A program made the position numbers and the translations under genes. The notes below the pieces were generated by a model. The model was given only the letters and a program-made list of their open reading frames with translations. It had not been told where the DNA came from and searched no databases. A DNA stretch of 10,225 nt from Dehalococcoidales bacterium (GTDB taxonomy: Bacteria; Chloroflexota; Dehalococcoidia; Dehalococcoidales; Fen-1064): the NCBI GenBank assembly GCA_030667735.1, contig DAOUVG010000027.1, forward strand, positions 1 through 10,225, in the 5' to 3' direction. This document shows positions 3,962 to 6,153 of the stretch, in pieces. Position 1 is the first letter of the stretch. The number at the start of each line of letters is the position of its first letter.

Positions 3962-4032
3962 CAATAAGCACACGGCGTACTGATTATTGAGAAGCATTAG
4001 TAGCGAATAACGAATGGGGAGGACAACAAGCA

Positions 4033-4506
4033 ATGCCGTTCAAGATGTCACTTGAAGAAGCCCTGGAGCGGGTAATCGAGCACATGCATGGAGGCTTTCA
4101 CTGAGGGCCGAGCGTCCTGCAAGTTATGTGGGAAGCAGAAGAACTTGGTCCGGAGGACGTGCTCTGGTCATCCACCGCCTTTAACGGCGGCATCGCCGGC
4201 CAGCAGAAGGCTCCATGCGGTGCCGTTTCAGCAGCAGCGGTCTGTCTGGGACTACGCCACCGCTGCCCTATCAGTGATAAGGAACGAGCTAACGAGGCCC
4301 GCGAGACCGCTCGTGGTGATGCCAGACTCTTCGTCTCAAAATTCCTGGATGAGTATGGCTCCATAACCTGCGGTGAGCTGCTGGGTGTTGATTTTTCATT
4401 ACCGGAAGGGTACCGTAAATTCCGCGAATCGGAGCTATGGCGTGATAAGTGTGATAATTATGTCAAGTTCGCTGTCCGGCAACTCTACGAAATGGCCGGG
4501 TCCTAG
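4033..4506 (+). CDS. C-GCAxxG-C-C family protein, probable selenoprotein (in-frame TGA at 4102-4104)
   Basis: Small protein of the C-GCAxxG-C-C family, thought to be redox-active or metal-binding but of unknown exact role. Read through one TGA it gives 157 residues, the family's usual size. ATG 4033 has a strong GGGGAGGA site (4016-4023) about 9 bases upstream. TGA is codon 24, in the context GGFH-TGA-GPSVL. Family members, as I remember them, read GFNCAQSVL there, so the TGA replaces the first conserved Cys. The rest is intact: APCGAVSA with Cys62, GSITCGELLGVD with Cys113, and DKCDNY with Cys140. Ala stands where the GCAxxG motif usually ends in Gly. The frame is the same on both sides of the TGA and a SECIS-like hairpin follows, so selenocysteine is the best reading. 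The alternative is a nonsense mutation, leaving a caller only the fragment from about 4126. It probably shares the amidohydrolase's transcript. Confidence 0.8.
4112..4136 (+). promoter_or_regulatory. candidate bacterial SECIS element
   Basis: Seven base pairs (TCCTGCA 4115-4121 with TGTGGGA 4127-4133, two of them G-U) close the five-base loop AGTTA. Two more G-C pairs (4112-4136, 4113-4135) lie outside a G-A mismatch. Seventeen bases separate the TGA from the loop, and G is the second loop base. This fits the known bacterial pattern of a short hairpin right after the UGA with an early loop G, and the spacing is close to that of E. coli fdhF. It was paired by eye, not folded by computer. Confidence 0.6.
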
Positions 4507-4540: not shown

Positions 4541-4576
4541 TGATTGGCGGGAATGGTTCAATATTCCCGCCAATCA
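4541..4576 (+). terminator. strong hairpin after the selenoprotein candidate
   Basis: A perfect 14-bp stem (TGATTGGCGGGAAT at 4541-4554, ATTCCCGCCAATCA at 4563-4576) with an 8-base loop, 35 bases after the stop. It has no T-run and otherwise looks like a terminator closing the amidohydrolase/selenoprotein unit. An imperfect copy of its left arm occurs at 4648-4662. Confidence 0.65.
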
Positions 4577-4671
4577 GGCTTGGAGTCGCAGGATATGGAG
4601 TCACGCCAGCGAGACTTCTCTAGAGTGCGGATGGACATAACTGACCGTGATTGCGGGAATGGATGTTGCTT

Positions 4672-5376
4672 ATGACAGGACTACTGAAAAGTATGCTACT
4701 ACGTTTGATAATTGTCCTGGTGATACCGGTGATAGTTGCCACGCTGCTGGCAGCCATGCCGGTTGAAGCCGGCTGACCTGGGAACTCTTTCAGGCTGACG
4801 GTCGATGTCAGCCCGGCAGAAGGCGGCGGTATCCAGGTGGAATCGCTGCTCCCAGACAAATTCCCTATGAGTTACACTTATCCGACCGATTACTCTGTGG
4901 TACTCAGGGCAATACCGGTACCCGGTTACCGGTTTGTAAACTGGAGCGGTGATGCTAGTGGCAATAATGAAACGGTCGAGCTCACAATGGACTGCGGTAA
5001 GAGCGTTACCGCAGTCTTTTCAGTGGCAACCTATACACTGACGGTTCAAGTCGACCAATATGCCGGCGGTAAGGTTACCGTGGAACCGCAACCCGGTACC
5101 GGAGAAGGCTACGCTATGGGAACGCAGGTCACACTAATTGCCAATGCCACCGAGGGATACCGGTTCAGTCACTGGAGCGGCGATATTTCCGGTCAGGATA
5201 ACCCGGTCACCCTGGTTATGAACTCGGCCCGTGAGGTGAACGCTCACTTCGTGGAGCCTTCGACTTTCGCCTGGTGGTGGATAGCCCCCGGTGCTGGTGT
5301 CGTCATTATCGCCCTGTTGATATACTTCCTGACAATCAGGAGACAGGGTTCCTCACGGAAGTTGTTCGCTCCGTGA
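4672..5376 (+). CDS. secreted, membrane-anchored InlB-B-like repeat protein, frame interrupted by TGA at 4774-4776
   Basis: Cell-surface protein of unknown role. From ATG 4672 (ATG 4663 is also possible) the frame gives a typical signal peptide: Lys/Arg, a long Leu/Ile/Val core and a cleavage-like PVEAG end. TGA is codon 35. The same frame then runs without break to 5376. After it come two repeats resembling divergent InlB-B/bacterial-repeat domains, with matching cores GYRFVNWSGDASG and GYRFSHWSGDISG, each ending in a short AVF/AHF strand. A C-terminal transmembrane helix (WWWIAPGAGVVIIALLIYF) and a basic tail would anchor the protein. The conservative start is GTG 4837, but that removes the first strands of repeat 1 and all export signal, so I doubt it. 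The TGA may be a nonsense mutation, a sequencing error or, less likely, a recoded codon; a hairpin follows at 4793-4813. Stop is TGA. Confidence 0.6.
4793..4813 (+). promoter_or_regulatory. hairpin downstream of the in-frame TGA (weak SECIS candidate)
   Basis: A perfect 7-bp stem (GGCTGAC 4793-4799, GTCAGCC 4807-4813) closes the loop GGTCGAT. The loop lies 23 bases after the TGA at 4774 and begins with GG, which meets the loose bacterial SECIS rules. Such hairpins arise by chance in G+C-rich DNA, and nothing in the protein calls for selenocysteine here, so the functional reading is weak. Confidence 0.25.
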
Positions 5377-5496: not shown

Positions 5497-6153
5497 ATGA
5501 TTCAACGCGGCATCATCCTCTTTCTGGTAATGTCGCTTGTTATTATGGGCATACTCACAAGCTGTTCGGCTCCACCGGAAGGTTCCTCAGTGTGGTATTT
5601 TGACCGGGCTTATGAAATGGCTGCTAAAGGGCACTTTGAAGAAGCAGTAATTGAGTACACCAGGGCCATCGATGTCGACCCTGCCATGGCGAGGGCCTAC
5701 ATCAACCGGGCGGCTGCCTATGCCAGCCTGGAGAAGTATGACCAATCAATAGCCGACTGCGCCAAAGCCATCTCTCTTGATTCGGAGTTGGCTCTTGCCT
5801 ACACCAACCGCGCCTATGCCTACAACGCCAAAGGCGAATACGAACTGGCTGTAACTGACTGCGCAAGGGCTATTGAGATTGACCGCAGCATCGCCGAGGC
5901 CTACATCAACCGGGCTGGGGCCTACATCGGACTTGGTAAAACACACCTTGCAGTTGCCGACAGCAACAAGGCCCTGGAAATTAACCCTGACCTGGCCCTG
6001 GCATACTTCTACCGTGCTCTTGCCTACAAGGACATGGGAATGAAGGACGAGGCAATAGCAGATTTCGAGAAGTTCATCACCTTGACCAGTGACCCGGCGT
6101 TGAGTGAAGCCGCTACCCACGAAATCAGCCAGCTCTCCGAAGAAAAGGAATAA
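5497..6153 (+). CDS. TPR-repeat lipoprotein
   Basis: Predicted exported lipoprotein of 218 residues that likely serves as a protein-binding scaffold at the cell surface; partner unknown. A hydrophobic signal peptide leads to the lipobox LTSC with the lipidated Cys at residue 23. From about residue 30 to 200 the protein is five consecutive 34-residue tetratricopeptide units, seen in the recurring pattern AYxNRAxAYxxxGxxxxAxxDxxxAIxxD. Units 2 and 4 are similar even in DNA: GCCTACATCAACCGGGC occurs at 5695-5711 and 5899-5915, which suggests fairly recent internal duplication. A short acidic tail (QLSEEKE) ends the protein. ATG 5497 follows an AGAGGT ribosome site at normal spacing and a good promoter at 5420-5448. 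It appears to be a single-gene unit. Confidence 0.9.
   Translation: MIQRGIILFLVMSLVIMGILTSCSAPPEGSSVWYFDRAYEMAAKGHFEEAVIEYTRAIDVDPAMARAYINRAAAYASLEKYDQSIADCAKAISLDSELALAYTNRAYAYNAKGEYELAVTDCARAIEIDRSIAEAYINRAGAYIGLGKTHLAVADSNKALEINPDLALAYFYRALAYKDMGMKDEAIADFEKFITLTSDPALSEAATHEISQLSEEKE

Follow-up and report, generated by a model that had tools for sequence, protein, structure and literature searches.

Selenocysteine (Sec) is already on record in the protein family to which the first gene described here belongs. PMC13188914, in the part of its text that was available, lists Sec forms 1 and 2 of the C_GCAxxG_C_C family, and a HUGP/GUXX-star fusion selenoprotein, for which the model is printed there as NF041212, is credited to Haft and Tolstoy 2025. 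The same partial text gives limits for bacterial SECIS elements: a loop of 3-9 nt with G in the first two loop positions, a stem of 4-16 bp, a spacing of 16-37 nt, and an energy at or below -7.5 kcal/mol. We compared with these systems a locus in a window, by which we mean the whole 10,225-nt stretch of DNA analysed, from the draft genome of a Dehalococcoidales bacterium (contig DAOUVG010000027.1).

Read through on the forward strand, positions 4033-4506 encode a single 157-residue protein, which runs from ATG 4033 to TAG 4504-4506 and has U at residue 24 (MPFKMSLEEALERVIEHMHGGFH-U-GPSVLQ...), where the TGA at 4102-4104 stands in frame. The original prediction, made from the letters of the window, held that this TGA joins two parts into one C_GCAxxG_C_C protein that a standard gene call would truncate, and on these points it has held up well. 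The C_GCAxxG_C_C profile PF09719 is matched from end to end by residues 22-154 (profile positions 1-118 of 118; 54.4 bits, against a cut-off of 27), while the TIGR01909 cut-off for the same family is missed by 1 bit (46.4 versus 47.4). The TGA falls, as proposed, on the first conserved Cys of the family, and the other three (Cys62, Cys113 and Cys140) are kept; an alignment of 19 sequences shows positions 62, 113 and 140 invariant, as is position 24, where U or C stands. The ribosome-binding site noticed ahead of the upstream part is GGGGAGG at 4016-4022 (forward strand), and a purine-rich site precedes the start in the other HUGP homologues whose start was shown. A standard ORF call does cut the gene, yielding 126 amino acids from ATG 4126.

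The best NCBIfam match is NF045501, with residues 1-155 lying on profile positions 1-155 of 236, the HUGP motif included. Because only this part of the profile is matched, we interpret the protein as the stand-alone HUGP half of the fusion; it ends at 157 amino acids, has no GUXX-star half, and at 234.8 bits does not reach the model's cut-off of 325. The predicted structural model is all-helical (mean pLDDT 86.9), with U24 and C113 as the first residues of helices, C62 just before a helix and C140 inside one. A PDB sequence search at E values up to 0.1 gave no matches, and a Foldseek search with the model gave 27, none at E 0.001 or better. The same genome encodes a second C_GCAxxG_C_C protein (contig C12, 7598-7993), which is stop-free, of the Cys type, and 29% identical.

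Homologues of the HUGP gene were sought in the genomes of 60 relatives and in its own genome. All nine homologues with at least 50% identity in the 60 other genomes (ten of ten with the window's own) contain exactly one internal stop, a TGA, and in the alignments it occupies the same codon throughout, in keeping with the original argument that a chance nonsense mutation is an unlikely cause. Distant matches in this search, with 36% identity or less, are stop-free, and a scan of the genome contigs found one locus. An exchange of Cys and Sec at the codon-24 column had also been suggested as a check, and the aligned relatives display it. Among the 120 protein-database relatives listed, of 132 found, 22 retain the N-terminus, and these have Cys (21) or Trp (one, P0033) at the Sec24 column. 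The N-terminus is missing from the other 98, of which 92 begin MWE, like the 126-residue call, and we infer that a TGA is present in the genes of these 98. For 27 of the 120 listed relatives the protein stops near GFGG, which is what a fusion form cut at its second TGA would give. The TGA of the HUGP gene very probably encodes selenocysteine, and on this comparative evidence its identity as a selenoprotein gene is well supported.

A candidate SECIS hairpin follows the HUGP codon at 4115-4133 (forward strand), with a 7-bp stem and a loop that starts 17 nt past the UGA and reads AGUUA in nine of the ten genomes and AGUCA in the tenth. Its energy is -10.4 when the lower pairs are counted and -6.2 for the upper stem alone; by the former value the hairpin lies within the SECIS limits in the available text of PMC13188914. 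Codon choice is nearly frozen in this zone. At the five degenerate codons that specify invariant residues, the ten genomes use 1, 1, 1, 2 and 1 codon types; the other 29 positions of this sort average 2.97 types, and a single one of them shows one type. Codon freezing is a stronger SECIS sign for HUGP than hairpin energy, which does not stand out from single-gene synonymous shuffles (p = 0.219) and is unremarkable among dinucleotide shuffles of 65 nt (z = -1.0). Rfam, searched at gathering thresholds, gave zero matches in the whole window.

The machinery for selenocysteine was proposed as a further check: selA (505.9 bits) and a selD that itself contains Sec are present, while selB over its cut-off and tRNA-Sec were not found in this fragmented draft, which is 88% complete and in 315 contigs. 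In a complete genome the original prediction would have counted such an absence against itself. The selD gene (contig C46, 1465-2529; 394.9 bits) has one internal TGA and reads HGAG-U-ACKIGPG; upstream of it is a small ORF (1246-1464) that we take to be TusA/YedF-like. The best selB candidate in the draft scored 187.8 against a cut-off of 242.25, and we presume that the candidates below the cut-off are other translation GTPases. For tRNA-Sec, 150 of 227 candidates were scored and ARAGORN was run on five of the 11 matches; the best match (49.6 bits, cut-off 47) is tRNA-Ser(UGA) by ARAGORN and was rejected. The missing selB and tRNA-Sec are most likely an assembly gap, because the selA contig (C180), which breaks off at SelA residue 391, ends just before the place that they occupy in a congener. 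The congener's contig is 92% identical to C180 over 2442 nt and has selB 28 nt after selA and tRNA-Sec(UCA) about 600 nt beyond selB on the other strand. Eight of the nine other HUGP genomes have selB over the cut-off, and for the ninth (G007) there is a 69-bit match to tRNA-Sec. The genome's Uxx_star match (63.3 bits, cut-off 66) was considered as a GUXX-star protein and set aside; it is instead a UPYC glutaredoxin (contig C129, 956-1204) whose active-site TGA lies near the N-terminus (TPT-U-PYC; hairpin p = 0.010), and a nearby ORF on the opposite strand looks to us like a P-type ATPase.

The window holds a second candidate selenoprotein gene, at 4663-5376 on the forward strand, which is absent from the original prediction. 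Its start is placed at 4663 from aligned orthologues (4672 is possible), and its layout is a predicted signal peptide, a probable Sec, two InlB/B-repeat units (PF18998) and a C-terminal membrane helix. The TGA, at 4774-4776, is residue 38 counted from ATG 4663 (VEAG-U-PG) and comes directly after the signal peptide in all eight exported-gene loci beside HUGP, the window's own included. A profile of the first 130 residues was run against 298 genomes, with at most 14 candidates scored per genome. It yielded 35 matches that cover the N-terminus and contain a single TGA, spread over 22 genomes at up to four copies each, and neither TAA nor TAG is listed in any of the 35 rows. The 29 that were read in sequence (27 sites and two further) have the TGA after the signal peptide in each case, including one (L185) whose contig holds only the last residues of the signal. 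Several genomes have two to four TGA paralogues (L089/L111/L121 in G112, L119/L113 in G098, L117/L122 in G106 and L116 in G124, among others), and paralogues in one genome differ in their outer domains.

The count leaves out a class-level TGA match (G614) and the stop-free matches below 85 bits that reach the N-terminal part (G065:C8, G057, G090:C27, G095, G098:C102 and others). The latter were rejected as family members; those that were read are distant B-repeat proteins whose N-termini differ. TAG also occurs in the matches that another search gave in G001, G002 and G035; in G001 and G002 it is the natural stop of the gene, reached since the query extends further. A search of 400 genomes across the phylum found a TGA-bearing match in the window's own genome only, so the family looks limited to the order. 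NCBIfam release 20 has no selenoprotein model for nine members of the family (eight with TGA, one with Cys); the repeat model TIGR02543 is over its cut-off in four of them, and the other matches are to unrelated models far below their cut-offs. For the window protein the sole NCBIfam match listed is TIGR02543, at 15 bits against a cut-off of 20.95. Taken at the level of sequence, gene 4663-5376 looks like a member of an exported selenoprotein family that is so far unlisted.

Cysteine replaces Sec in this family as well. Four genomes have Cys at the exported TGA site (L124-L127), with match scores similar to those of the TGA forms, and a protein search with profile A5 returned 25 proteins, including one more full-length Cys form (P0191). 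A selB match was found in 18 of the 22 genomes with exported TGA genes and in none of the four Cys genomes, compared with 120 of 200 genomes searched; the TGA genomes that have no strong selB match are G000 (the window's own), G007, G013 and G125, the last a single contig at 75% completeness. Because three of the four Cys genomes come from one family, the Sec/Cys contrast by selB presence may represent one event, and given such shared ancestry the association of selB with TGA is support rather than proof.

The exported gene has its own candidate SECIS hairpin at 4793-4813 (forward strand), 24 nt after the UGA, with an 8-bp stem and the loop GUCGA; at -12.2 it is within the limits in the available text of PMC13188914. 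A contiguous-stem hairpin at or below -7.5 kcal/mol occurs at 16 of the 27 exported TGA sites. Against synonymous shuffles, in which the codon usage of the window genes was applied to all genomes, p is 0.010 in the window and below 0.05 at 14 of the 27 TGA sites, versus none of the four Cys sites. Covariation was assessed on the 15 of the 27 sites that align gap-free. The six-pair core is paired in 97.8% of cells, and at three pairs both partners have changed, which concerns eight cells. The observed pairing, the eight cells and the covariation score were each reached by 0 of 500 shuffles; the number of pairs changed on both sides (reached by 16 of 500) and the number of pair types (500 of 500) do not stand out. 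The hairpins of L111 and L123 are no better than chance. In a second exported group, whose TGA is followed by a Gly/Ser-rich linker, there is a different strong hairpin, with loops such as AGGUCC. The Cys form L124 (G074) retains a GGSS-type linker where some Sec forms encode a hairpin, and this linker may be a decayed SECIS.

The exported gene lies near HUGP at eight of the ten loci and does not adjoin it in G006 and G048. An ATGA overlap joins the two genes in G003 and G007, a gap of 3 nt divides them in G004, G008 and G010, and the gap is about 150 nt in the window's own genus (three genomes). In the window this interval contains an inverted repeat at 4542-4575 with 13-nt perfect arms and no T-run, which is shorter in G002, and none of that kind was found in G001. 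To judge from this arrangement, HUGP and the exported gene form a predicted operon in most of the loci read, and therefore both proteins probably serve one pathway. The pairing with an amidohydrolase (PF04909; 2987-3961, forward strand), which the original prediction had counted as part of the novelty, proved not to be fixed: the gene is an inconstant neighbour, found beside HUGP at seven of the ten loci, and in G004 and G008 there is no amidohydrolase between HUGP and the next gene. A Gate-domain membrane protein (PF07670; 1888-2859, reverse strand) is a neighbour at eight of the ten loci, and a TPR protein (5497-6153, forward strand) at nine.

We hold it highly probable that both TGA codons encode Sec, directed by hairpins and inserted by SelA/SelB/SelC/SelD, and that the locus specifies a cytosolic HUGP protein and an exported protein from one operon. 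The observations behind this reading are the frames, the conservation of TGA, the Cys/Sec exchange, the hairpins, the Sec genes and the gene order; Sec insertion, signal cleavage, membrane topology, co-transcription and a redox or metal role are its interpretive part. SelA, SelB, SelC and SelD would insert Sec at both codons, each directed by the hairpin just downstream. The HUGP product would be cytosolic and all-helical, Sec24 beginning a helix, and Sec24 with Cys62, Cys113 and Cys140 would probably make up a selenol/thiol redox site or a soft-metal site. The fusion of this domain to a glutaredoxin-like domain (PF00462) in relatives of 202 amino acids suggests, by analogy, a role in thiol/selenol exchange or with soft metals. 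The C-terminal helix would anchor the exported protein in the membrane, leaving Sec outside the cell, at or next to the first mature residue; cleavage by signal peptidase I after the Ala that precedes (G)U is the favoured possibility. The two proteins would then probably contribute to a single pathway from opposite sides of the membrane.

A bolder extension is offered tentatively, and we think it rather unlikely to hold in full: that the two genes, as one operon, specify a membrane-spanning two-selenoprotein unit of a cytosolic HUGP protein and an exported, membrane-anchored one, the latter representing an undescribed, order-wide family with Sec at the mature N-terminus or one residue away, where ordinary B-repeat lipoproteins have their lipid-bearing Cys. 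If true, electrons, or else a soft metal or metalloid, would pass from one side of the membrane to the other by way of the two Sec residues of this unit.

The cleavage site bears on the strongest competing view, in which the exported Sec is itself the lipid-attachment residue of a lipoprotein, at the place of the +1 Cys of remote B-repeat lipoproteins. Remote relatives (L107, L160, L150 and L106) have, in the TGA column of the profile alignment, the Cys of LFSGC, LSGC and LGGC boxes, which we take to be lipoboxes, and the residues before the exported U are often A-G or A-A. Yet E, K, S or W frequently occupies position -3, and the KPVEA of the window protein resembles, in our judgement, a signal peptidase I site. 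Moreover, 18 of the 21 members in which the stop is reached have, by eye, a hydrophobic stretch and basic residues at the end, which makes a lipid anchor unnecessary; L117, L118 and L116 (masked in that part) lack this ending. We consider lipid attachment at Sec improbable.

Less probable still is the view that accepts HUGP as a selenoprotein and takes the exported-gene TGA for a real stop, after which a separate repeat protein would begin, leaving a short exported leader peptide upstream. Leader peptides are known in bacteria. Gene finders do start the repeat protein downstream (GTG 4837), and the closest database relatives have 129-182 amino acids. However, all eight loci read keep the upstream part and the repeats in one frame, the first B-repeat begins ahead of the downstream starts, and the Cys forms L124-L127 run straight through the TGA site. 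The stop is TGA in 35 of 35 rows, and the hairpin after it covaries. Mild coding constraint is seen before the TGA as well: within the genus, pS is 0.155-0.250 and pN 0.077-0.102 before it (0.098-0.230 and 0.049-0.098 after it), a difference that is weak evidence alone because the part before the TGA has only 37 codons.

A changed genetic code, by which this lineage would translate TGA as tryptophan or some other amino acid, might explain the Trp at the Sec position of P0033, the HUGP relative for which a gene call under another code is our guess. TGA ends four of the ten window genes, Cys occupies both sites in relatives, and Sec genes are present; on these grounds the changed code was rejected, and we give it scarcely any weight. 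The fragmented state of the draft (315 contigs) would speak for decaying genes in which each TGA arose on its own, by nonsense mutation or sequencing error. This idea is in effect refuted, with a negligible chance of being right: many genomes that were assembled separately have the stop at an identical codon, it is TGA in 35 of 35 rows, and the reading frame is open on both sides of it.

The preferred reading, with Sec at both TGA codons, has consequences for annotation. Both proteins are truncated at the TGA by standard gene calling; for the exported one, the export signal and the putative reactive residue are lost from view, and its 17 best-scoring database relatives all begin beyond that point. 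The stand-alone HUGP form scores under the existing model's cut-off. The exported family would add a kind of selenoprotein outside the usual thioredoxin-like ones, with an extracellular Sec near the mature N-terminus, and the Cys versions in sister genomes with no selB match would offer a natural test of Sec/Cys exchange.

Searches of the literature did not find the exported family; their coverage was mostly of papers outside subscription, so its absence from print is unproven. In the available text of PMC13188914, Table 1 (119 families, by that text) has no B-repeat or PF18998 entry. The original prediction was right that Sec-containing members of the C_GCAxxG_C_C family were already known (NF045501), and since the HUGP selenoprotein is already a named family, the novelty claimed for this instance is smaller than hoped. 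The window protein aligns end to end with positions 1-155 of the NF045501 fusion profile, H-U-G-P included, and differs from the fusion in having no second, glutaredoxin-like half. It resembles C_GCAxxG_C_C proteins in matching the whole of PF09719, with Sec at the first conserved Cys position, whereas ordinary members have NCAQ where the window protein has HUGP. The exported protein shares with InlB/B-repeat proteins (PF18998) its two repeats, its export signal and its C-terminal hydrophobic helix, and unlike them it would have Sec after the signal peptide. Its likeness to the transporter-associated selenoproteins SaoX and SaoB, as these appear in the available part of PMC13188914, is that Sec occurs in membrane-tied proteins; in contrast to that kind, it is matched by no NCBIfam selenoprotein model. 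By this comparison the HUGP gene would be a known kind of selenoprotein gene in unfused form, and the exported family is probably a new selenoprotein family.
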